Assembly: GCA_035653615.1 (NCBI GenBank)
Contig: DASRBN010000031.1
Coordinates: 62,001 to 126,000, forward strand
Source of the DNA: Ktedonobacteraceae bacterium
Lineage (GTDB): Bacteria; Chloroflexota; Ktedonobacteria; Ktedonobacterales; Ktedonobacteraceae
DNA length: 64,000 nt
Direction: 5' to 3'
Each line of letters starts with the position of its first letter. Position 1 is the stretch's first letter. The notes below the pieces were generated by a model that worked only from the letters and a program-made list of their open reading frames with translations, searched no databases and had not been told where the DNA came from. Of the stretch, positions 31,327 through 54,775 are shown in pieces. The translations under genes and the position numbers were made by a program.

Positions 31327-34300
31327 TCATTCCTCTTCAAAATCAAAGCTCTCGAAGCGCAGCGTGCGGCAGTTCTCCTCGATGGTGCGTTTGATGTCAT
31401 CGGGGACGGCAGGGATGGTGGCCTGAATTTCCAGCGTCACCTGCACGTCTGCTCCATAGATGGCGGTCAGGTGGCGCACGACCTCGTCCATGATCGTCCC
31501 GGCATTTCCCGCCATCATGCGTGGATTGAGTTTGATTGAGCCGTGAAAGCGTTGCGCCTGCGGTGTTCGTTCTGCCGGAAGTGTTGTCTGCTCCGTTGAG
31601 GATGGCGTTGCTGTTGGGCGGGCAGGCTCCAGAAGGGTTGAGCCGCCGCGCTCGCTGACCGCGGGCGATTTCGCGCTGCTTGCGCCGGGTGCCGTATAGG
31701 TAAGTGCCGTGGCGGCCTGTTGAGTGACCTGGGCGTCAGCCACGAACTGCCTCGCGGCGGCTTCGGGTTTCACTACGACGGCATTGCTGTTGAGCGCGAC
31801 CTGCACCTGCTGGCCCGCCTTGAGACCGAGATAGCGCTGGCGCTCGGCGTCGTAGCTGTCGGCGTAGGCAAACGTTTCCTGCTCCCAGGTAAGCGATTGC
31901 ACGCCTTCGCGGATGGCCGCCAGCAGCACCTCGGTATTCTTCAGGCGTGGCAGGTAGAGGTAGCGGGCGAAAAATTCGGCCAGTTCTTTGACGGTGACAT
32001 GATCGCCGCGCCAGAGGGGAATCTCGTCCATTTTGCCGCGCAGCAGGGTTCCGGCGTATTGCGTGAGCAGGAGATCTTCCGTGCGCAGCTTGCGACTGGC
32101 GTTGCTCGCCAGCGGACTTTGTGGCTGGGGCTGCAAGCGATACTCCTCGATGCTCTCCGGCTGGTGCGTATCAAGTTGCTCGGGGACAAGCAACCAGATG
32201 TAGGTTTCGGGGATGCGCGCCTTCACCGTTTCCTCCGCACTCTTCAGGCGCGTGCTGGCCTGGTTGCGCTGCGAGGCGTCCAGGTTGAGCGACTCGCTAT
32301 CCCGCAGGATCGACTCCCACGCCAGGAATTGTCGCATCCCCTGCTTCAAGTCTTCCAATCGCGCGCGATCAGCCGCCAGGAAGACCAGCGTGTTGCGGTA
32401 GTGACGCAGCGCATCTCCCCGTGTGTTGAGGATATCCCGTGCCTGTGCCATGCCGCTGCTCTGCGCATCGTGCAGGGCGTGGGAAAATCGCGGCTTGAGG
32501 ATCACCAGTCGTGCCGCCATGTCGTCGTCGGCGACATCGCTGCTGGACGCCGGGCAGGGATGCACGCGAGCAAAATCGCCGCGATTGGCCTGCTCGGCCC
32601 GCACACGTTCTTCGATTTTATCGAGTACCTCTTCATCAGAGTACTGCGCGGCGCGATCCTGCGCCAGGCGGGCGACCGTGGGCTGCGTGCTGTACCAGTA
32701 GCGTTGCCCCTCCACCGTCAGATAGGCCGAGGAATCGGCGAGACGGCGCAGGGCATCGCCGAAAATGGCAACGCTCTCTCCCGGCTGTGTGCAGCCCAGG
32801 TTGATCTGTCGCACCGGCAACCCCCGGTTCTGGCTGCGCAGCGTGGGAGCTGAGCCGAGGTAGATGGTGCGGGCCACACGGCGGCAGGCCGAATAGCGCC
32901 CCAGGTTCGGATTCTCACGGTCCAGGCGTGCTGGGAGCGCGTTCGTACCATCGACTTCGCTCTCAATCACCGGCACCCAGCTATTCTCCAGGTAACGGGT
33001 CAGTTCGTATTGCACTTTGGGCGCGGCCACCGGCACCGTTGCGGGCATGATGAGGATGCTGTTATCCTGGCCCTCCCACAGCGCATGCACAACCGCGGCC
33101 ATCAGGCGCAGCACGCCGCGTGTCCGCTGGAACCCCTCGATACTTGACCAGTCGGTATAGAGCCGGTCAAAGAGTTCGGGATGGATGGGATAGGCATGAC
33201 GAATGCGCCGTTCGTAATCGGCCTCACCACAGACGGCGGGAAATTCTTGCGGCTGGCCGCGGTAGAATTCGACGAAGGCTCGAGCGACGGCATCGCGCGC
33301 GACAAAGCTGGCCGGGTCGGCGATATTCTGGAACAGGCGACGGCGCACGATCTCAAAGCCCTCCTCGGCATCGGCCGGTCGCCAGGGCGACTCGACGCGC
33401 CCAAAGATACGCTTGAGTCGTTCGGCGGCTTCGCGACCGCCTTCGCCGCCTGTTTCGGCATCGGAAGCAGGAATGGTCGCCACCAGCAGTGTGCGCGGGG
33501 CCGCTTTGGCCGCCTCGGTCAGCGACTGCGCGAAGCTGAGATTGGCGTCGAACGAGCCGCCGGGCAGGCCGGAGATATTATACAGCTGGCGGGCATAGAC
33601 CACCCATTCGTCGATGAGAATGAGGCAAGGGGCCGCTGCCGCAAATAGTTCGCGTAGCACGTCCGAGCCGGGACTGACACCCTGCCGATCCGCCTCGGCC
33701 ACCATCGCGAAGCCATCCTTGCCGAGCAGTTGCCAGGCCAGTTCGCCCCACAGCGTGTTCACTATGCAGCCATCTGGTTTGGGACGCGGTATACCCGGCG
33801 AGAGTTCGTAGCCTACCAGCACGGCACGCTGCGCCTCCGGCGGTTTTGCTACTCCAGCTTCGCGCAGCACTGCGTCAAGACCGGCCAGTTCGGAGGCCGG
33901 TACGCCTGAGAAGAGATGGTACAGCGCCAGCAGCGAGTGCGTCTTGCCGCCACCAAAGTTGGTTTGCAGGTCGACCACCGGGTTGCCACCACTACCATCG
34001 AGGCGCTGCAGGGCATCGATCAGCAAGCGGCGCAGGCCATAGGTCAGGTAGGTGCGCTGGTAGAAGGCGCGTGGGTCGCGGTACTCCTGCGCGCCGAGGC
34101 CGCGAGCCACCTGTCCCAGGTCGGCGGCAAACTCGGCGGACTCGTAACGACCGGAAGCGACATCGGGATGGGGCGTAATCACCTCGCGCCAGGGACGCAG
34201 CCCCATGCCCGGTCGTCCCTCGACGGAGGTAGCGGAGACCTTGCGTGTCTCGTTGCGCGCCTGCTCTTCAAATCGCTGGCGCAACAGTTCCTGTTTCTGC

Positions 34301-34692
34301 CGCTCCACCTCACCTGCCTCCTGCGCGGCGGAGACGGCGTTGAGCAGGCGCTGAATGCTATCGAGCGCGCGGTAGGCGTCGTCGGTGCTGAAAGGACGCT
34401 GGTGCGCCCACTCGTTGCGCGTCTCGCGCAGTTCGCTCACCAGCGAGCGCTCCGCGTGTCCCAGCACGTTCCTGAACACCGGCTGCCACTGATCCCAGAT
34501 GATCAGCAGCAGCGCCTGTGAATCCAGGTGCAGGCCATCGTCGCCGATATGCTGATCGCGCAGCGCCTGCACCGCCTCGTACTGCCAGCGCGAGCCATAG
34601 GTAGCCTGCATCTGGCGCTCCACAAAAGGCTGCAACCCCTGCTTCAACAGGCTCAATGCGCGCCCCACGCGCTCGTAGTTGCTCTGTGCCAT
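31327..34692 (-). CDS. HEPN (Swt1-type)-DUF499 ATPase, putative defence protein
   Basis: Large protein of 1121 residues. The N-terminal 120 residues look like a Swt1-type HEPN domain, with R92-N-E-W-A-H97 matching the RxxxxH catalytic motif of HEPN ribonucleases. After a coiled segment (about 125-150) comes a DUF499 P-loop ATPase: Walker A NFGGGKTH with Lys250, and Walker B LILIDEW (357-363). The long middle part is helicase-loader-like, and the C-terminus (about 1040-1121) is a small alpha/beta domain. DUF499 proteins are found with DUF1156 methylases and helicases in predicted phage-resistance operons. It is the last gene of the minus-strand operon 42451-31327, 317 bp after the PD-(D/E)xK gene. 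No stretch of obviously foreign codon use is apparent by eye. Large open frames on the plus strand here are shadows. Confidence 0.88.
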   Translation of the reverse strand: MAQSNYERVGRALSLLKQGLQPFVERQMQATYGSRWQYEAVQALRDQHIGDDGLHLDSQALLLIIWDQWQPVFRNVLGHAERSLVSELRETRNEWAHQRPFSTDDAYRALDSIQRLLNAVSAAQEAGEVERQKQELLRQRFEEQARNETRKVSATSVEGRPGMGLRPWREVITPHPDVASGRYESAEFAADLGQVARGLGAQEYRDPRAFYQRTYLTYGLRRLLIDALQRLDGSGGNPVVDLQTNFGGGKTHSLLALYHLFSGVPASELAGLDAVLREAGVAKPPEAQRAVLVGYELSPGIPRPKPDGCIVNTLWGELAWQLLGKDGFAMVAEADRQGVSPGSDVLRELFAAAAPCLILIDEWVVYARQLYNISGLPGGSFDANLSFAQSLTEAAKAAPRTLLVATIPASDAETGGEGGREAAERLKRIFGRVESPWRPADAEEGFEIVRRRLFQNIADPASFVARDAVARAFVEFYRGQPQEFPAVCGEADYERRIRHAYPIHPELFDRLYTDWSSIEGFQRTRGVLRLMAAVVHALWEGQDNSILIMPATVPVAAPKVQYELTRYLENSWVPVIESEVDGTNALPARLDRENPNLGRYSACRRVARTIYLGSAPTLRSQNRGLPVRQINLGCTQPGESVAIFGDALRRLADSSAYLTVEGQRYWYSTQPTVARLAQDRAAQYSDEEVLDKIEERVRAEQANRGDFARVHPCPASSSDVADDDMAARLVILKPRFSHALHDAQSSGMAQARDILNTRGDALRHYRNTLVFLAADRARLEDLKQGMRQFLAWESILRDSESLNLDASQRNQASTRLKSAEETVKARIPETYIWLLVPEQLDTHQPESIEEYRLQPQPQSPLASNASRKLRTEDLLLTQYAGTLLRGKMDEIPLWRGDHVTVKELAEFFARYLYLPRLKNTEVLLAAIREGVQSLTWEQETFAYADSYDAERQRYLGLKAGQQVQVALNSNAVVVKPEAAARQFVADAQVTQQAATALTYTAPGASSAKSPAVSERGGSTLLEPARPTATPSSTEQTTLPAERTPQAQRFHGSIKLNPRMMAGNAGTIMDEVVRHLTAIYGADVQVTLEIQATIPAVPDDIKRTIEENCRTLRFESFDFEEE

Positions 34693-34747
34693 GATGTCTC
34701 TCTCCCTTATCTATCATCGTTTTTCACAAATTATTCCGGCAACTAAG

Positions 34748-34866
34748 CGATCAATCGGCGCCACGGCTGTGTCGTAGGGGCCGATTGATCGCGCCCACCG
34801 CCGATTGATCGGCCCCTGGCCTTGAGGTCTGCGGTGTCGCCATCAACCGTAATGGCCGATTCATCG
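34748..34866. repeat. Four copies of a GCCGATTGATCG motif
   Basis: The 12-mer GCCGATTGATCG occurs at 34780-34791 and 34800-34811, inverted at 34748-34759, and with one change (GCCGATTCATCG) at 34855-34866. The first and second copies can pair as a long hairpin. They lie in the 317-base gap 34693-35009 between two genes of the defence operon, which otherwise contains only the repeat at 34921. They could fold in the operon mRNA or serve as protein sites. Confidence 0.75.
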
Positions 34867-34920
34867 GCGTCCACTACCGATTACGGACTTTCACCTTCAA
34901 GAATGGTAAGAATCGCGTGT

Positions 34921-34950
34921 CCATGTCATTCTGAGCGCAGCGAAGAATCC
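34921..34950. repeat. TGTCATTCTGAGCGCAGCGA-type repeat, internal copy
   Basis: A short copy beginning CATGTCATTCTGAGCGCA and ending GAAGAATCC, between the PD-(D/E)xK and DUF499 genes. Same family as 31271, 42677 and 43069. Confidence 0.85.
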
Positions 34951-35009
34951 CTCGCCCGAAGTTGTCCAGCCGCCCCGGTTTCAGCCCCTGGCCCACTTCT
35001 GGGTAATCA

Positions 35010-36026
35010 TCAGAACGAATCTCTTGCTCTCATGCTCTGGCAAAGCGCACGGAATTGCAGACGTAGTGTCTGAAGGTCTGCCCTGCTATCCCCTGTAAGC
35101 ACGTGCAGGAATTCCGGCACCGCCCAGCGAAACAGTATTGCCTGGCGCGCCATATAGATACCAACTGCATTGATATGAAGCTGGTCATCATAATCAAGCA
35201 GCAGATAACCGGCTAACTGATAGAGGTAATCCGCCTTCAGTTGCGGAGCTATGCTTGTTTTGATATCAATAAGACAGCCATCGACAACCAGGTCAGCATC
35301 CGCTCCTCCAACATCGCCGCTTCCTGCGAATGTAGGATTCAGTACGTGGGGCAGCGACAGGAGATGCTGGTAGCGGTCATAAAAGGCGTTGAATAACATC
35401 CCCATATCGTCGATCCAGGATTGCTGTGGGATAGCCAGCAATTCCTCAACGCTACGCTTCACTGTGGGCTGCATAAGCGGGCCTTGCAGGTAGGTATTGC
35501 TACGGGCGGCCTGTTCAAACAGACTCAACACGAAGCAATAACGATCCAGTAGGTGTTCCGCTTGAAGTTCCAGCCGTCGTCCAACAGGCTGAATGACCTT
35601 TAGTACGGCATCCAAAGCTTCAAAGAACTGCCGGATGAGCTTGAAAGGATAGGGACCTTGCGCGACCCCCCGCGTGATATCAAAGAAAATGGGGGTGATC
35701 AAGAGAATTTTAAACACTTCATCCTCATCTAAAAGGATATCCTGCTCACTGCTTGCGGGCTGTACCGCCAATTGTAGAGCCCCCTCCCATGCGACGAGTC
35801 GTTGATACGGTGTGATGGCGAATGCATAGCGTATACGATAATCGATAGCTGTACCGAGATAGATATAGGGATAGGACTCCCCAGTTTGAACAACGGGCCG
35901 AAGCGTAAGAGCATCCCTCAGCTGACGATTGGCATCCTTTGTCAGCGCACCCGTCTGTGAAAACTGTTGTTTGATGAACTGTCCCATGAAACTGGCCCTG
36001 TCATTGAGATGTGAGGTAAGCGACAT
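35010..36026 (-). CDS. PD-(D/E)xK-like nuclease, putative defence component
   Basis: Protein of 338 residues that would normally be called hypothetical. Residues about 240-275 carry a plausible PD-(D/E)xK nuclease core: Asp245 in GGADADLVVDG, then Asp254-Ile-Lys256 in CLIDIKTS, followed by a helix with YLYQLAGYLLL, as in RecB/Cas4-like nucleases. The N-terminal 230 residues are mostly helical and of unknown fold. AAAGGA lies upstream of ATG 36026. It sits 78 bp after the methylase and ahead of the DUF499 gene on the same strand, so it is probably part of the same system, perhaps its DNA-cutting subunit. Not all DUF1156/DUF499 loci known to me include such a gene. The nuclease call rests on motif reading only. 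Confidence 0.65.
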   Translation of the reverse strand: MSLTSHLNDRASFMGQFIKQQFSQTGALTKDANRQLRDALTLRPVVQTGESYPYIYLGTAIDYRIRYAFAITPYQRLVAWEGALQLAVQPASSEQDILLDEDEVFKILLITPIFFDITRGVAQGPYPFKLIRQFFEALDAVLKVIQPVGRRLELQAEHLLDRYCFVLSLFEQAARSNTYLQGPLMQPTVKRSVEELLAIPQQSWIDDMGMLFNAFYDRYQHLLSLPHVLNPTFAGSGDVGGADADLVVDGCLIDIKTSIAPQLKADYLYQLAGYLLLDYDDQLHINAVGIYMARQAILFRWAVPEFLHVLTGDSRADLQTLRLQFRALCQSMRARDSF

Positions 36027-36104
36027 GGTTTCATCGATTCCTTTGCTACTTAAACAACAATCAGTACAATCTATCCTTGCCGTTTACGATTTTTAAAGAC
36101 CTTT

Positions 36105-38942
36105 CTACCCCATATACGTCGCTTCCCACAACCCTGCATCTCCAGCCTCGCGATGCGCCAGGCGGCTAATCTCAGACCATGACGTGACCAGGCTGTTGTA
36201 GGCCAGCGCCTCCTGCGCCCAGCCCTTGCGCTCGCAGAGCGTGTAGAGGCGATAGGCCAGGTCGCGGGCAATCTCGCCGCGCGCGCCCGCCAGTCGCAGG
36301 ACATCGCCCGCGCCAACCTCGCCTTTCTGATTGAGCGCCGCGATCATGCGCTGTGTCACCTCCCATACCGTCAGGTGCGAGGAGCGCGGATTCCAGTTTT
36401 CCAGCAGGTCCTCGCGGCGCACCAGTCGCACCTTGCCGCCGTGCGCCTGCACCAGCCCGGCGTCGACCATGCCCTGCACGCTCGTATTCTTCGCCTTCGA
36501 AAGCGTCTCGGCCATGCCGTATTCGCCCTCGTTCATCGCATACTGCTCGAACCACGCGACAGCCCAGCGCGTCTCGCCATCGTACTCGCCCTCCTGCTCG
36601 GCCAGCGCCTCATCCAGCGCGCGATTGATCAACTGCAGCGCCGTGCGCACGCCCATGCGCGTTCCATCCGACTCGACCACCCTGCTGTAGCGCGAGTAGA
36701 TCGCCATTCCCGGGCCGATGCTCGCCTGCGCCAGGTCCACCGGCGCGATGCTGCCATGTTGCAACTTCTTCAGCGCGGCGGGCAGTTCCGCCTTGAGCGC
36801 GGTGAGGAACTGGCGACGCGACGCCACCGGCGCATGTTCCTCGCGCGGGCGGCAGACAAGAACGATGGACGAGGCAAGAGCATTTGTTCCCAGACCAACG
36901 CTGCGATTGAGCATTTCCGTGCGCACCGGCCATGTTCCGGTAATGGCAAAACCGGCGCGAATCAACCCTTCCAGCATCGTTTCCCAGCCGGTCGAGGCGA
37001 TGTTCTTTATACCATTACTATTGCCAGTTTCTTCATCTTCACTCTCACCCTCTGCCTCAGACTCAGCCTGTTTGAAGGCGTAGTAGACCGTCAGAGGGTA
37101 TTCCGGATTCTGAGCCTTTCTCATGCGCTCGAAAGCCTGCCCTAACCCTGTCTCAAAGAACTGCTGCGCCTCGCCCTTATTGCCATTAAAGCGGTACGGC
37201 GTCGCCACCAGTTCCTGCGCTTTGGGTACCAGCATCGTCCTGAACAGGTCGGGGTAGAGCGTGCCAAGCGAGCGCCGCAACCAGACATAGAAGAAATCCG
37301 CCAGGTCAGCGTACCCGATATTGTCATAGTACGGTGGATCAGTCGAGATCATGGGATCCATTACGCCATTGATAGCTGTGGCAGCATCGCGCTGTTGCGC
37401 TACACCTTTTGTTTGAGCGGGCGATATTTCGATAACCTGAGCTACCCAATCGACGGCTCCCATGTAATTCCCACTGGAGTCACTGAACGGATTCGCCTCG
37501 GCGAAATCCCATACCATCGGAATAGCTTGACGAGCGAACGTATTACGCACTGTGTCTCGTCCAGCATGCCAGGAACAAATAGTTGACCAGTAATCTGCTC
37601 CCTTATCCAGCGCAATCCCCAAATACGTCGCTACCGCATCAGCATACGCCGTTGCGCCCCTACCTCCGTCATTGAGCGAGGTGCCATCATCGGTCCAGCC
37701 AGCTTCACGTGCATCAGCCAGCACACGCTCCCTGGCTTCCAGCACAAGATCACCGAAGGTGGTTAGCGCGACAAGCTGGCGGGAGGTGAATAAATCGCAA
37801 TGTTTTGTCATGCCGTAAAGCTGTACGCGGAAACCCAGCGCCTGTTCTGGTAGAGTTGTATCAGGTACATCTTGAGGTTTCGCCTGGGAAGCAGTAGCTT
37901 CCTGCTCTTCGTTTGGCGAGATATATGCTCGCCCACCATGGCCTTCGGCAACGATTGCCATGAGTTGCGCGCCTATGCGACCGGCTTTGCCCTCGCTGCG
38001 AACGTGGTCGAAAGATACAGGAGTGCCACAGGCGATGCAAATAGCGCCACGCCGGTTGACTGTGCCATCCTGTGGCCTGCCCTTGCCTGTCTTCACAGCG
38101 AAGTGGATGGCTGGAGGCGTGACGCCGCGGTCGATCTGTGGGTCAACCCATGCCTCTTTACCCTTCTTTTTGGAGAGCCACCATTTGCTGGTTAAAGGCA
38201 TCTGTGCGCCGCAGGCGGGATTGGGACATTGTACGGTACGCACCCACAACCAGGCGATTACGGTTGCTTCGCCGCCGCCGTATTCGTGCGGCAGCGTGAC
38301 GTGCGGGTAGAGGTGGCCGATGCGCCGCGCTGCTTCGTCGCGCATCCACTTGCCGTAGTAGCGGATATCGCTGGCAAGGCCGCGTGCGCCGTGCCAGTCG
38401 CCACCCATCAGCGATTGGCGCGCCTGCGGGTTCACGGGCGTCTGCCCGGCAAACTTCGGTGGAATCTCGATCAGCGCCTTGTTGATGAGGACCGCCACGG
38501 GGTTGAGGTCGCTGGCATGCGCTTCCAGGCCCAGTCGTTGCGCTTCCAGCGGAATGGAGCCGCCGCCCGCGAAGGGATCGAGAACCGGCGGCGGGTTGTC
38601 ACCGGTCGATTTGAGAATCTCGGCCCGCGCCATGCCTAAGACATCCTCGTTATTGGAGTTTTCCCAGAGGACCAGCTGTTCTATCAGCTTGAAGAGTCGC
38701 TCGCGTTCGGCTTGCTGTTCCTGCTCGGTTGGAAATTGCTCAGGATGGGCCGAGGGGTCATCGACGAGCGAGGCGAAGAGGACAGCGCGGCATGTTGCCA
38801 GTGGTTTGCGTGACCACCACAGATGCAGCGTCGAGGGGTGGCCGTGCCGGATGGATTTCTCGCGGGCCGAGGCGACGTTGATAGCGTTGAGCGGCAGGGC
38901 GACCTCGATCAATTTGGTGCGATAGGATGGTTGCATACTCAT
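36105..38942 (-). CDS. DUF1156 adenine-specific DNA methyltransferase
   Basis: Protein of 945 residues that should methylate adenine (N6) in DNA. The N-terminal DUF1156 region has RHGHPSTLHLWWSRKPLA (32-49). SAM-binding motif I is LDPFAGGGS (121-129) and catalytic motif IV is STDPPYYDN (533-541), a beta-type order with a large insert between them. The insert holds a zinc-ribbon-like set, Cys239/Cys244 and Cys302/Cys305. The C-terminal third may be target recognition. ATG 38942 overlaps the helicase TGA as ATGA, so the two are translationally coupled. In restriction-like systems the methylase marks host DNA as self; here the helicase, nuclease and ATPase around it would act on unmarked DNA. 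Confidence 0.93.
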   Translation of the reverse strand: MSMQPSYRTKLIEVALPLNAINVASAREKSIRHGHPSTLHLWWSRKPLATCRAVLFASLVDDPSAHPEQFPTEQEQQAERERLFKLIEQLVLWENSNNEDVLGMARAEILKSTGDNPPPVLDPFAGGGSIPLEAQRLGLEAHASDLNPVAVLINKALIEIPPKFAGQTPVNPQARQSLMGGDWHGARGLASDIRYYGKWMRDEAARRIGHLYPHVTLPHEYGGGEATVIAWLWVRTVQCPNPACGAQMPLTSKWWLSKKKGKEAWVDPQIDRGVTPPAIHFAVKTGKGRPQDGTVNRRGAICIACGTPVSFDHVRSEGKAGRIGAQLMAIVAEGHGGRAYISPNEEQEATASQAKPQDVPDTTLPEQALGFRVQLYGMTKHCDLFTSRQLVALTTFGDLVLEARERVLADAREAGWTDDGTSLNDGGRGATAYADAVATYLGIALDKGADYWSTICSWHAGRDTVRNTFARQAIPMVWDFAEANPFSDSSGNYMGAVDWVAQVIEISPAQTKGVAQQRDAATAINGVMDPMISTDPPYYDNIGYADLADFFYVWLRRSLGTLYPDLFRTMLVPKAQELVATPYRFNGNKGEAQQFFETGLGQAFERMRKAQNPEYPLTVYYAFKQAESEAEGESEDEETGNSNGIKNIASTGWETMLEGLIRAGFAITGTWPVRTEMLNRSVGLGTNALASSIVLVCRPREEHAPVASRRQFLTALKAELPAALKKLQHGSIAPVDLAQASIGPGMAIYSRYSRVVESDGTRMGVRTALQLINRALDEALAEQEGEYDGETRWAVAWFEQYAMNEGEYGMAETLSKAKNTSVQGMVDAGLVQAHGGKVRLVRREDLLENWNPRSSHLTVWEVTQRMIAALNQKGEVGAGDVLRLAGARGEIARDLAYRLYTLCERKGWAQEALAYNSLVTSWSEISRLAHREAGDAGLWEATYMG

Positions 38943-41900
38943 ACGGGAAGAACTCCTCTGGATAGTAGTTTTGCTAGCTCATAATTGACGCTGGTTGCGC
39001 CAAAGTCCGGTTCGCGCCCGAATGGCCGCTTGACGTAGTGGGTAGTGGTCGTCTCGCCATCGATCAGGACAATGGCGAGGATGAAATCGTCGGGTTTGTT
39101 GAGCGCGGTCAGGATTTCGTTGCGCGTGACGGTGACAGTTGTGGCATCTTTGACGCGGCCTTTGACCTCGATGAAGCGCAGTTTGCCGGTGCCGGGAATG
39201 GACGATTCGATATCGTAGCCGCACTTCTCGGCGCTCACATCGCGTGGCACATAACCCAGCGCGCGTTCAGCCTGCATGACGGCCTCCATTGCCAGTCGCT
39301 CGACGCGGGCCGTTTCGTGTGCCTGCTCGTCGCTTGCCGGAGCGGCGATATCCAGCAGACGCGCCAATAGTGCCTGTGGGACGATCAGGGCGCAACCGAT
39401 GACGACCGGCGGCAGCGGGGAGAGCTTGCGCTCCTGTTCCAGTTCGGCGACGCGGCGATCCAGCCGGTCGAGCAGTTCCTGCGCCCGGCTGCGGGCGTTG
39501 CGCGAGTTGAGGCGCGCATTGGGCCGGCCCGCCGCTTCCTGCATGCGCAACTGCTCGGCGCGGTTATCCCAGAAGCTGATCTCGGTCGTCAGCCGCTCGT
39601 TGACGGCGGCGATAGTCTTGTTGATCTGGGCCTCGCGCCGCTGTTTCACTTCGGCCAGGTGGCGCGGCACCAGTTCGGTGATGGCATAGCCGCGTGCCTG
39701 CCCTTCCAGATCGCCGGCCAGCCAGGATGCGCCGCGCAGTTCGGCAGCGATAGCCTGCTCTTCATCCGTGAGCGGGCGATAGTCGAGGAAAGGCGCGTAA
39801 CCCGCGCTGCGCAGGGAACCGGCTTCATCCAGTTCGATAAAGTGCAACTGGCGCGAGACTTCGTGGCGCTTGCCCGCGCTGTCGTGGCTGGCATCCTGGA
39901 TGGTCTCTTCCAGATAGAACAGCACGCGCATCTGCTCGCTCGAATCGGTCGGGTCCACGAGTATGGCTCCCTGTTTCAGCAGGTCGCGCTGCTGCTCCAG
40001 CACCAGGTCGAGCGTGGCATCCAGCAGGGGATGGCCGGGGGCAATCAAGACAGCAGGAGGCTTGCCATCGACATGGACGCGCTCCTTCTCAAAGACGATA
40101 CGCTCGTAGCGGCGCAGGATGACCGCCCGGCTATCATGACGGGGCGGGCGCTGGCGAATGGCAGACGGAACGTTGGTGATCTCATAGCGTTGCGGCTCGC
40201 GCTCGTAGATGCTGCCGCCCAGGCGTCGAAAGGCTTCCAGGAAGAAGGAGGCGATGTAGTGCGGCTGCAACCGACGTGCCTGGGCGCGCTCCATCTCCTC
40301 ACGAATCTGCCGCACGCGCACCACGTCCATCACTTCGTGCGTCAGGGCGCGCTCTTCCAGCAGGGTCTGCAAATGGTCGCGGTCCAGCGCCCGGTCAACC
40401 ACGTGGAACAGGCGAGCGCGCACGGCGGGCTGCTCCCCGTAGCGAATGGCCTCCACGATCAGTTCGCGCAGGGAGCGATCTTCAAACAGTTTGTCGTTGC
40501 CCAGCACATCGAAAACCTGCCCGCCAAGGGCCTCGCGCTCTTCCGCCAGCTTGTGCAGCAGCGTATCGAAGACTTCGCCTTCGCGCGTATCAACGGCCAC
40601 GAGATTCCACAGGTGGCAGACCTCCGTTTGCCCGATACGGTGAATGCGCCCGAAACGCTGCTCGATGCGATTGGGGTTCCAGGGCAGGTCGTAGTTGACC
40701 ATGAGATGGGCGCGCTGCAGGTTGATGCCCTCCCCGGCGGCATCGGTCGCCAGCAGGATGAGCGTCTCTTTATCCTGCGTGAAGGCTTCCTGCGCGGCAG
40801 CACGTTCGGCGCGGCTCATACTGCCGTGAATGGTAACAACCGCCTCGGCACTGCCAAGCAGGGTACGGATGCGCCCTGCCAGGTAATTGAGGGTATCGCG
40901 GTGTTCGGTGAAGATCACCAGCTTGCGGCGCTGCCCTGCCGGGTCGAACATCTCCGTTTGCTGTTCAAGGAGACTAGCCAGTTCCTCCCATTTGCGGTCC
41001 GTCCCGCTGCGTCGCACCTGCAAGGCCAGCGCCTCCAGCGTGGTCAAGGTGGCAATCTCGGCTTCCAGTTCAGCGATGGTGCGGGCCGCCGATGCCTGAT
41101 CGACGACCTGCTCCTCCGTCGCCTCGCGCTCGGCGTCCGGCGCGTCCTCCAGGTCGTCGAGATCGTCTTCGTCAAAGGATGGCAGGTCGGCGAGCAGTTC
41201 AAGCGGAGCCTGTATGTTCTGCAGTTGGGCCTGCTTTGTTTCCTGTAACCGGCGTTCCAGCCGTTCGCGCCTGCGCCGTAGGGATTGATAGATCGCTTCC
41301 GGTGAGGAGGCAAGGCGGCGTTGCAGGGTCGTGAGGGCAAAGCCAATGGTGCCCCTGCGGGCCTTCTCAAGGGCATCGGCGCGATTGAACTCGGCGCGCA
41401 CGTAAGAGGTCACGGCCTGATAGAGCGCGGTTTCCTGTGGCGAGAGGCGGTAGGTGACGCTATAGGCGTAGCGTTCGGGAAAGAGCGGCCTGCCCTCGAA
41501 GGTGTAAAGCTGCTCTTTGACAAGGTGGCGCATGAGATCAGAGGCATCCACAACGTGGACGCCCTCGCGGAACTTTCCCTCGAAGCGGTCGGCATCGAGC
41601 AGGCGCAGGAAGAGTTGAAAATCCTCTTCTTTGCCGTTATGTGGGGTGGCAGTGAGCAGCAGCAGGTGGCGCGTGAGCGTGCCGAGCAGTTCGCCCAGGT
41701 GGTAGCGTTTTGTATACTTCGGCTCGCCGCCGGCAAAGGTGGCCGACATCTTATGCGCCTCATCGACCACGACGAGATCCCACTCGCTCTGCCGCAGCGT
41801 CTCCTGCGCGGCCTCACTGCGCGAGAGTTTGTCGAGGCGAGCGATGCATAGCGGCATCTCCTGGAAAGCGTTGCCGGAGACGGAGGCCTCCAGCCGGTCA

Positions 41901-42451
41901 TTGGTCAGGATGGCGAAGGCCAGGTGGAAGCGGCGGGCAAGTTCGTCCTGCCATTGCTCGACGAGGTTGCCGGGAGCGACAATGAGGCAGCGCCGCAGGT
42001 CGCCGCGAATGAGCAGTTCTTTGATGAGCAGGCCGGTCATAATCGTTTTGCCCGCGCCGGGATCATCGGCCAGCAGGTAGCGCAGCGGCTGCTTCGCCAG
42101 CATGGTCTCGTAGACGGCGGTGATCTGGTGTGGTAGCGGCTCGATCAACGAGGTATGCACGGCGATGAGCGGGTCGAAAAGGTACGCCAGGCGAATGCGA
42201 TAAGCTTCGGAGGCGAGACGGAAGAGCGAGCCATCGGCATCGAAACGCCAGGGCAAATTGGCGGGCACAATCTCCAGGCCGGCAATAACGTCCTGGTACA
42301 GCAATTCGCTGCCCAGCCGCCCGTCAGCATCCCGGTACACCACTTCCACGCCAACGGAGCCATGCTGCCTCGCGCTGACAATGCTGACGGTAGCAGCAGG
42401 CAGCAATCCCCTGACCTGCGCGCCGGGGACCAGTTCTTCCAGGGATGCCAT
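38939..42451 (-). CDS. SNF2/DEAD-like helicase with C-terminal DUF3883 domain
   Basis: Protein of 1170 residues. Superfamily 2 motor: motif I DDPGAGKT (129-136), motif II DEAH (230-233), motif III LLTATPHNG, then IFTEHRDT, ATDAAGEGINLQ and QRFGRIHRIGQ, the last typical of SNF2-type translocases. A charged insert rich in Asp/Glu lies between the two RecA lobes (about 410-450). The C-terminal 100 residues match DUF3883, with Asp1080 (GYDIES) and Glu1095-Val-Lys1097 (FIEVKGR), a PD-(D/E)xK-like arrangement that could cut DNA. It is first in the four-gene operon. Similar helicases occur in DISARM-like loci, but no drmA, drmB or drmC homologue is present here. ATG 42451 follows GAGGGTGG. Confidence 0.92.
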   Translation of the reverse strand: MASLEELVPGAQVRGLLPAATVSIVSARQHGSVGVEVVYRDADGRLGSELLYQDVIAGLEIVPANLPWRFDADGSLFRLASEAYRIRLAYLFDPLIAVHTSLIEPLPHQITAVYETMLAKQPLRYLLADDPGAGKTIMTGLLIKELLIRGDLRRCLIVAPGNLVEQWQDELARRFHLAFAILTNDRLEASVSGNAFQEMPLCIARLDKLSRSEAAQETLRQSEWDLVVVDEAHKMSATFAGGEPKYTKRYHLGELLGTLTRHLLLLTATPHNGKEEDFQLFLRLLDADRFEGKFREGVHVVDASDLMRHLVKEQLYTFEGRPLFPERYAYSVTYRLSPQETALYQAVTSYVRAEFNRADALEKARRGTIGFALTTLQRRLASSPEAIYQSLRRRRERLERRLQETKQAQLQNIQAPLELLADLPSFDEDDLDDLEDAPDAEREATEEQVVDQASAARTIAELEAEIATLTTLEALALQVRRSGTDRKWEELASLLEQQTEMFDPAGQRRKLVIFTEHRDTLNYLAGRIRTLLGSAEAVVTIHGSMSRAERAAAQEAFTQDKETLILLATDAAGEGINLQRAHLMVNYDLPWNPNRIEQRFGRIHRIGQTEVCHLWNLVAVDTREGEVFDTLLHKLAEEREALGGQVFDVLGNDKLFEDRSLRELIVEAIRYGEQPAVRARLFHVVDRALDRDHLQTLLEERALTHEVMDVVRVRQIREEMERAQARRLQPHYIASFFLEAFRRLGGSIYEREPQRYEITNVPSAIRQRPPRHDSRAVILRRYERIVFEKERVHVDGKPPAVLIAPGHPLLDATLDLVLEQQRDLLKQGAILVDPTDSSEQMRVLFYLEETIQDASHDSAGKRHEVSRQLHFIELDEAGSLRSAGYAPFLDYRPLTDEEQAIAAELRGASWLAGDLEGQARGYAITELVPRHLAEVKQRREAQINKTIAAVNERLTTEISFWDNRAEQLRMQEAAGRPNARLNSRNARSRAQELLDRLDRRVAELEQERKLSPLPPVVIGCALIVPQALLARLLDIAAPASDEQAHETARVERLAMEAVMQAERALGYVPRDVSAEKCGYDIESSIPGTGKLRFIEVKGRVKDATTVTVTRNEILTALNKPDDFILAIVLIDGETTTTHYVKRPFGREPDFGATSVNYELAKLLSRGVLPV

Positions 42452-42676: not shown

Positions 42677-42755
42677 ATGTCATTCTGAGCGCAGCGAAGA
42701 ATCTGCGTGGTGAAGAATCTGCATGGTGAGAGGGATTCTGAGCGCAGCGAAGAAT
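42677..42755. repeat. Two tandem TGTCATTCTGAGCGCAGCGA-type copies
   Basis: One copy at 42677-42708 (CATGTCATTCTGAGCG then AGCGAAGAATC), a short spacer with GAAGAATCTGCATGG, and a partial copy GGATTCTGAGCGCAGCGAAG ending near 42755. They lie in the 397-base gap between selC and the helicase gene, which must also carry the operon promoter; I see no clear promoter hexamers. Confidence 0.85.
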
Positions 42756-43068: not shown

Positions 43069-43158
43069 AGGGATTCTTCGCTGCGCTCAGCATGACAGGC
43101 CCCGGAGACAGCCAGGTGTCTCCGGGGCCTGTCATGCTGAGCGCAGCGAAGAATCCCT
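43069..43158. repeat. 90-bp perfect palindrome from two inverted repeat copies
   Basis: Arms 43069-43110 and 43117-43158 are 42-base exact reverse complements around the 6-base centre GCCAGG. The outer part of each arm is the GGATTCTTCGCTGCGCTCAG/CTGAGCGCAGCGAAGAATCC repeat, the inner part a GGCCCCGGAGACA/TGTCTCCGGGGCC stem. It lies in the 254-base gap 42945-43198 between selC and the HAD gene, and could form a long hairpin or cruciform or serve as a strong terminator for the HAD gene. Confidence 0.95.
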
Positions 43159-53671: not shown

Positions 53672-54775
53672 TCACACGCACTCTCTCAAAGCAGCGTTCC
53701 CGCTAATACCGCGCAACTTCATGAGGGCTACCACCTCAAGCTGGCGCACACGTTCGCGGGAGATGCCCAGTTCTTTGCCAACCTCAAGCAAGGTGCGGCT
53801 GCGTCCATCGCCAATGCCATAGCGGAGAGTAATCACCGCACGTTCGCGGGGTGTAAGTAGCGCAAGTGCGCGATGTAGTTCTTCGCCGAGCAGGTGTTGC
53901 GAGGCGGTTTCTGCCGGGGCTGGAGCCGCGCTGTCTTCCAATGTATCGGCCAGGGAGTAGCGCGCCTCATCATCGACAGGCGCATCCAGTGAAACTGGCT
54001 GCTCAATGATACCAAGCAAATCAACAACTTCTTCCAGATTGATGTTGCATGCCTCTGCAATTTGCTCGGGCAACGGATCAAGGCCGTTCTCCTGTGATAG
54101 CTGGGCGGCAACCCGTCGTACTTTCCGCAGGCGTGTGGCTACGTGTTCTGGCAGGTGGATCAGGCGCGATTGTTCGCCTGCTGCGCGGCTGACTGCCTGG
54201 CGAATCCACCACGTGGCATAGGTGCCGAAATGGCAGCCGCGGCGGTAATCAAATTTCTCCGCGGCGCGCATGAGCCCCAGATTGCCCTCTTGAATAAGAT
54301 CGATAAGTGGGACGCCCGTGCTGGTATAGCGGCGCGCGATGGCGATGACCAGGCGCAGGTTTGATTCGATCAGCTTGCGGCGCGCCATTTCATCACCGGC
54401 TGCGGCGCTACGAGCCAGTTCGATTTCCTCGGCGTGGGTGAGTAGACCCAGGCCACGAATATCGCGCAGGTAGCTCTGAAAAGCATCCTCAGAGCCTTGC
54501 GCTGTGCGAGTACTCGCCGACCGCGTGCGCCGTTCGCGTAAAGTTAGTTCTTCCAGTACTTCATTTTCACCAATATCATCAGTTTCATCAAGCAGCGTGT
54601 CTTCCATATCTTCTATAGAAGGATCTGCAACCAGAGGTTCAGTATCGCGCTTAGAAGTGGATGTAACCAGGAATGTATCCAGATGGGTTTCCAATTCTTG
54701 AGCGGTCGCAGGGAATACCGCGGGCGCAGCCAGTATAGAACTAAAAACATCGCTCGTAGGATCGACTATTGCCAT
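53672..54775 (-). CDS. RNA polymerase sigma-70 factor (RpoD-related)
   Basis: Sigma factor of 367 residues with regions 1.2, 2, 3 and 4. Region 1.2 begins DAFQSYLRDIRGLGLLT; region 2 contains NLRLVIAIARRY, IQEGNLGLMRAAEKFDY and TYATWWIRQA; region 4 has TPRERAVITLRYG and the helix-turn-helix LLEVGKELGISRERVRQLE. Region 1.1 is replaced by an acidic, Thr/Ser-rich leader of about 90 residues, so it is a group 1 or group 2 factor. One oddity is RRGCHFGTYATWWIRQA, where the usual form is RG.KFSTYATWWIRQA. GGGAG precedes ATG 54775. It is a single gene, flanked by a long upstream gap and a strong terminator. Confidence 0.93.
   Translation of the reverse strand: MAIVDPTSDVFSSILAAPAVFPATAQELETHLDTFLVTSTSKRDTEPLVADPSIEDMEDTLLDETDDIGENEVLEELTLRERRTRSASTRTAQGSEDAFQSYLRDIRGLGLLTHAEEIELARSAAAGDEMARRKLIESNLRLVIAIARRYTSTGVPLIDLIQEGNLGLMRAAEKFDYRRGCHFGTYATWWIRQAVSRAAGEQSRLIHLPEHVATRLRKVRRVAAQLSQENGLDPLPEQIAEACNINLEEVVDLLGIIEQPVSLDAPVDDEARYSLADTLEDSAAPAPAETASQHLLGEELHRALALLTPRERAVITLRYGIGDGRSRTLLEVGKELGISRERVRQLEVVALMKLRGISGNAALRECV

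Follow-up and report, generated by a model that had tools for sequence, protein, structure and literature searches.

Organization of the locus

The window analyzed here is a 64,000-nucleotide stretch of a contig from a Ktedonobacteraceae bacterium, and it contains a complete Hma (Type-1 BR) operon in which HmaA, HmaB, and HmaC are all full length (PADLOC scores of 1661.9, 1221.8, and 1078.9 bits, respectively; Table 1). An intact PD-(D/E)XK pattern, GYDI...FIEVK, is present in the NOV_C part of HmaA, and the HEPN part of HmaC has an RNEWAH motif. The Hma system is defined by three genes, hmaA, hmaB, and hmaC, in the available part of PMC8565338, and was renamed the Type-1 BR system (a DUF499-centered BREX-related system) in the available part of PMC12839542. 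The window operon resembles these systems in having a HEPN-fused HmaC and a nuclease-fused HmaA, but differs in carrying an additional 338-amino-acid gene, P0001, between hmaB and hmaC, which falls outside the three-gene definition.

P0001 begins with ATG and lies 78 bp downstream of hmaB, on the same strand as both of its neighbors. The original prediction, which gave no strand, had drawn this frame with exactly these limits and placed it between the DUF1156 methylase and DUF499 genes; both points hold, the peptide that it quoted (GGADADLVVDGCLIDIKTS) is present in the product, and its numbering of D245, D254, and K256 is correct. The frame is not a chance one, as homologues are present in Chloroflexota-type relatives and in Actinobacteria, with residues conserved across the aligned members. 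It was also correctly expected that the gene would be annotated as hypothetical: P0001 has no Pfam match above cutoff and no NCBIfam match, its family is absent from both databases, and we found no literature describing it. Its sole PADLOC match is a partial one to RTasPDDEXK (E value of 2.6e-10), covering model positions 105 to 211 of 226. Scanning positions 34500 to 36300 for promoters and terminators gave no terminator-like site and a single promoter-like site (plus strand), with neither result exceeding that of shuffled sequences.

Table 1. Features of the Hma operon and of P0001 (window coordinates)
Feature	Coordinates	Strand	Basis
HmaC, HEPN_Swt1 + DUF499 ATPase	31327..34692	-	Pfam, PADLOC; RNEWAH motif
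317-bp P0001-hmaC gap	34693..35009	-	Contains a copy of a repeat of this genome (34925-34950)
P0001, predicted RecB/Cas4-class PD-(D/E)XK nuclease gene, 338 aa	35010..36026	-	ORF, conservation, structure and fold comparison
Putative catalytic core of P0001, residues 231-262 (PTFAGSGDVGGADADLVVDGCLIDIKTSIAPQ), with D245, D254, and K256	35241..35336	-	Conservation; coordinates from residue numbers
Residues 57-66 of P0001 (LGTAIDYRIR), conserved GxxxD62 stretch, proposed motif I	35829..35858	-	Conservation, joint loss
HmaB, DUF1156 adenine methylase	36105..38942	-	Pfam, PADLOC; FAGGG and DPPY motifs
HmaA, Snf2-type helicase with C-terminal NOV_C nuclease	38939..42451	-	Pfam, PADLOC, motifs
NOV_C domain of HmaA, residues 1050-1139	39035..39304	-	Intact GYD...EVK pattern; coordinates computed

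Conservation of putative catalytic residues

Relatives of P0001 were collected from 52 loci, and after omission of L073, L074, and L075 (scores of 60 or below) and of L087, which is the same as L083, the alignment held 49 rows including P0001. K256 is invariant (49/49), as is D207 in the 47 rows with a residue there; D245 is an aspartate in 45 of 48 such rows, and position 254 is aspartate or glutamate in 45/49. These are followed by a Q270xxxY274 motif, with Q270 present in 46/49 rows and Y274 in 47 of the 48 rows that are not gapped there. Further upstream, D62 is retained in 40/45 rows. The conservation of D245, D254, and K256 that had been proposed as a check is thus evident, and every conserved catalytic position is kept in the window copy.

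Three relatives, L016, L017, and L018, lack all of D62, D245, and D254 but retain D207, K256, and R294. They constitute one clade (support of 100/100) on a long branch, and on the pattern of residues lost are probable pseudoenzymes. Nonconservation among orthologues, named at the outset as what would refute the nuclease assignment, is seen in this three-member clade only. The joint loss of D62 with D245 and D254 provides indirect support for a position of D62 in the active site, and we consider that D62 probably belongs to the catalytic set. Its surrounding stretch may be equivalent to motif I of the RecB class, in which a histidine is usual at what would be the corresponding position. In the paralogue encoded elsewhere in the same genome (L015), D62 and Y274 are lost and position 254 is a glutamate. 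We also note that the frames of the decayed clade (L016:386-1321, L017:1484-2410, and L018:8168-9085, all from one taxonomic order) are open and otherwise keep the family pattern.

Predicted fold and nuclease class

An AlphaFold2 model of P0001 built from 28 alignment rows has a pLDDT of 79, with values above 90 in the core and an unreliable segment at residues 84 to 123; strands and helices are predicted at residues 246 to 302. Comparison of the model using VIA-align gave MGME1 as the top entry (Z score of 7.9, rmsd of 4.5, 155 aligned), with Z scores below 8 being middling by the tool's own note. The first 30 entries range from 7.9 to 4.5, the first unrelated entry scores 3.9, and the leading entries include MGME1, Dna2, an Argonaute-associated Cas4 protein, AdnAB, RecE, AddAB, Cas4, and lambda exonuclease. 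All 30 are of what we take to be the RecB/Cas4/lambda-exonuclease class, and this agreement among all of the leading entries weighs more than the middling Z scores. A viral structure library returned helicase-nuclease proteins (best E value of 6.5e-6).

Other searches were less informative. Foldseek comparison of the model with the PDB gave no strong match (the best was Dna2, with an E value of 0.1), and searching solved structures by sequence with the family alignment gave a best E value of only 0.74. Pfam PDDEXK_1 matches none of 11 family members at an E value of 0.5, and hhalign comparison with the PDDEXK_1 matches of related genomes is weak, reaching a probability of 11.7% at best, with the aligned piece being the DxK...QxxxY stretch. 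The family resembles the RecB/Cas4/lambda-exonuclease class in predicted fold and in its D...D-x-K and QxxxY motifs, but differs in lacking a PDDEXK_1 match and in its weak profile comparison.

The proposal that P0001 has a PD-(D/E)xK core is borne out by the residue conservation and the fold comparison together, and structure prediction leads to a nuclease fold of the RecB/Cas4/lambda-exonuclease class. Membership of P0001 in this class of PD-(D/E)XK nucleases is supported by sequence and model alike, and by analogy it would act as a metal-dependent nuclease, with DNA as its likely substrate.

The N-terminal 230 residues, in which no known fold had been recognized at the outset, are all helical. 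Because the structural matches to the full model span residues 1 to 338, we suggest that these helices cap the nuclease core. Modeled alone, the N-terminal part gives a poor model (pLDDT of 64) with no structural match above a Z score of 3.7, and residues 1 to 40 are predicted with less confidence (about 60, compared with about 90 in the full model), as expected if the helices pack on the core. A poor isolated model without a structural match does not establish a new fold.

Distribution and genomic contexts of the family

Family members are present in six of 61 related genomes (the window's own genome included), in 17 of 400 genomes from the phylum (presumably Chloroflexota, judging from genome sizes and gene content), and on 37 plasmid records, 35 of which are from Streptomyces. 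The named genome collection has 32 loci, all apparently from Actinobacteria, and no relative was found in two scans of viral contigs or in phage records.

Whether the homologues always sit beside DUF1156 and DUF499 genes had been proposed as a check, and they do not: HmaA, HmaB, or HmaC was found at none of the 52 family loci (tblastn, E value of 1e-5; flanks to ∼10 kb, several loci being at contig ends). Three of the 17 family-carrying genomes of the phylum (G185, G193, and G287) have HmaB matches listed, but these are on different contigs from the family gene or separated from it by 428 kb or more. Reciprocally, none of 20 other Hma loci, which are from the same phylum and were drawn from the better HmaB matches rather than all of them, carries the P0001 family. 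P0001 within Hma has consequently been seen only once, with no recurrence behind a functional link, and the gene does not belong to the core of the system.

In 18 of 36 actinobacterial loci, a Walker A motif lies upstream in the same frame as the family gene, and in both of the two such loci tested Pfam names a UvrD helicase; these fusions recall RecB and AddA. In a clade of solo Streptomyces genes, a TnsB homologue lies ∼1 to 2 kb away in seven of nine tree rows, and that of L012 matches ShTnsB-type chains by phmmer (E value of 4.5e-19). Clustering of the neighbors of actinobacterial loci gave mostly frames overlapping the family gene itself, and pointed to the TnsB cluster. At L012, L083, L084, L089, L098, L101, and L102, the TnsB homologue is accompanied by a TnsC-like ATPase and, in most cases, by another conserved gene, which together make up a transposition module of the Tn7/Tn5053 type.

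For the Chloroflexota-side neighborhoods, selected neighboring frames were scanned, without a control, and the contexts are thus observations rather than enrichment. The own-genome paralogue follows tandem tyrosine integrases, in an island (L015:1178-17355) with a PbeA-like helicase, Type I HsdM and HsdS, and Septu-like PtuA/PtuB. Other family loci have mad7- and mad8/DndH-like genes (MADS/Dnd-like; G023), a Type I restriction-modification system (G367), a Type II methylase (G256), or an LRR-Roc-COR gene (G011), and nothing defense-like was seen among the frames scanned at other loci; L072, for example, has membrane and TPR proteins, and L073 has a primase-like gene.

Two PADLOC models touch the family. 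RTasPDDEXK (PDLC03797), which is DRT-associated, matches the nuclease core in nine of 11 members of the family alignment; P0001 is alike in its nuclease core, but differs in that its match stops short of the whole model. The scans of neighboring frames, which were not directed at reverse transcriptases, turned up none. PDC-S61 (PDLC05052) is matched by a shorter subfamily (five of 10 proteins tested) but not by P0001, at an E value of 1. The available part of PMC11514479 mentions PDC-S61 once, in a table.

P0001 appears to have entered the operon separately

The third-position GC content (GC3) of P0001 is host-like at 0.531, compared with 0.763, 0.689, and 0.749 for hmaA, hmaB, and hmaC, and a window median of 0.567; it is below all 2222 overlapping 1017-nt segments of the Hma genes, the lowest of which is 0.543. 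The gap separating P0001 from hmaC carries a repeat, GATTCTTCGCTGCGCTCAGAATGAC, that has 402 copies in this genome (a reversed control pattern has none) and is often paired in inverted orientation at spacings of a few tens of bases. Window copies are at 34925-34950, 42679-42704, 43071-43096, and 43131-43156, the last three being upstream of hmaA. In a phylogenetic tree, from which the four of 49 rows shorter than 230 amino acids were omitted, P0001 groups with members of its phylum (support of 100/98), and with its own-genome paralogue and the decayed L016-L018 clade (96/92, a grouping for which the tool warns of long branches). The simplest history is the later addition of a host-lineage nuclease gene to a high-GC Hma operon, and the best reading of these patterns is that the family is mobile and resident in the window's phylum, with P0001 inserted separately between hmaB and hmaC.

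Other Hma loci also vary in gene content. The hmaB and hmaC genes overlap or are at most 75 bp apart in eight of the 20 other loci; they are 1412 bp apart in the window. Defense or toxin genes lie between hmaA and hmaB in six of the 20 (L110, L111, L112, L116, L120, and L121), and match Schlafen AlbA_2, AbiJ, an OLD-type AAA ATPase, GmrSD (at two loci), and DarT with Macro. The hmaB-hmaC interval has an FGE-sulfatase-like gene in opposite orientation at L122, and a 23S_rRNA_IVP gene at L123.

Possible roles of P0001

P0001 was originally put forward as the restriction effector of the methylase/DUF499 system, and being a predicted nuclease seated in the operon between methylase and ATPase does speak for it. 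We consider this very unlikely, as an intact NOV_C PD-(D/E)XK site is present in HmaA and a HEPN motif in HmaC, the gene is missing from all 20 of the other Hma loci, and its relatives are not Hma-linked; the claim that P0001 is "the" effector is not supported by these comparisons. With effectors of its own in the HmaA NOV_C and HmaC HEPN domains, the operon does not need P0001 to explain restriction. A primary effector role was accordingly rejected. The available part of PMC12839542 assigns that role in such systems to the helicase-borne nuclease, and describes PD-(D/E)XK nucleases near or within the loci as auxiliary or backup effectors, a kind of extra nuclease that P0001 fits. That P0001 is instead catalytically dead, with a structural or regulatory part to play as its L016-L018 relatives seem to have, is more improbable still: the frame did stay open in the sister clade despite the loss of D62, D245, and D254, but P0001 retains all of the conserved catalytic positions.

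A less easily dismissed explanation, if on balance an unlikely one, is that P0001 is a nuclease with a role of its own, in single-gene defense or DNA-end processing, that came to lie in the operon without being functionally tied to Hma. The strongest point for it is the single occurrence in Hma, and the distinct composition and adjoining host repeat agree, as do relatives that are mostly solo or have other partners, some of them near TnsB or integrases, and the existence in PADLOC of a related single-gene candidate, PDC-S61. Against this, P0001 is on the operon strand just 78 bp past hmaB with its frame and catalytic set intact, no terminator-like site was found between it and its neighbors, and several relatives are also in defense loci. 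We lean, if only somewhat, toward P0001 being a RecB/Cas4/lambda-exonuclease-class nuclease (D245, D254, K256, and Q270/Y274) that is a noncore, separately inserted gene and a probable auxiliary or backup effector of Hma.

As such an auxiliary effector, P0001 may have been recruited to the operon, as GmrSD, Schlafen, or DarTG are at other Hma loci. It could degrade foreign DNA that the HmaA helicase has opened or translocated or, alternatively, stand in when the HmaA NOV_C nuclease is blocked, while the HmaB methylase would mark self DNA. We infer the coupling to HmaA because relatives are fused to UvrD-type helicases and other Hma operons have similar accessory genes. P0001 may cooperate with HmaA and be cotranscribed with the hma genes.

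More tentatively, and with rather little confidence, the family could be viewed as a portable RecB-class nuclease that plugs into whichever DNA motor a defense locus offers and that owes its spread to transposon and integrase elements, making it an interchangeable effector across unrelated systems. The motors would then perhaps be Snf2-type HmaA, the fused UvrD of Actinobacteria, a PbeA-like helicase, a HerA/DndH-like ATPase, and a Type I restriction motor. If the activity is as predicted, the combination of one nuclease family with several DNA motors would give a simple model for effector exchange among defense systems, and the decayed L016-L018 clade provides a natural loss-of-activity comparison.

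The operon type is a known one, and what is new is that a family with UvrD fusions and several defense contexts joins the accessory genes of Hma/BR operons, with composition showing that the accessory gene arrived separately from the Hma core. Elsewhere in the window, a 367-amino-acid gene on the minus strand (53672-54775) matches the C-terminal part of PADLOC MzaA (E value of 5.6e-51).
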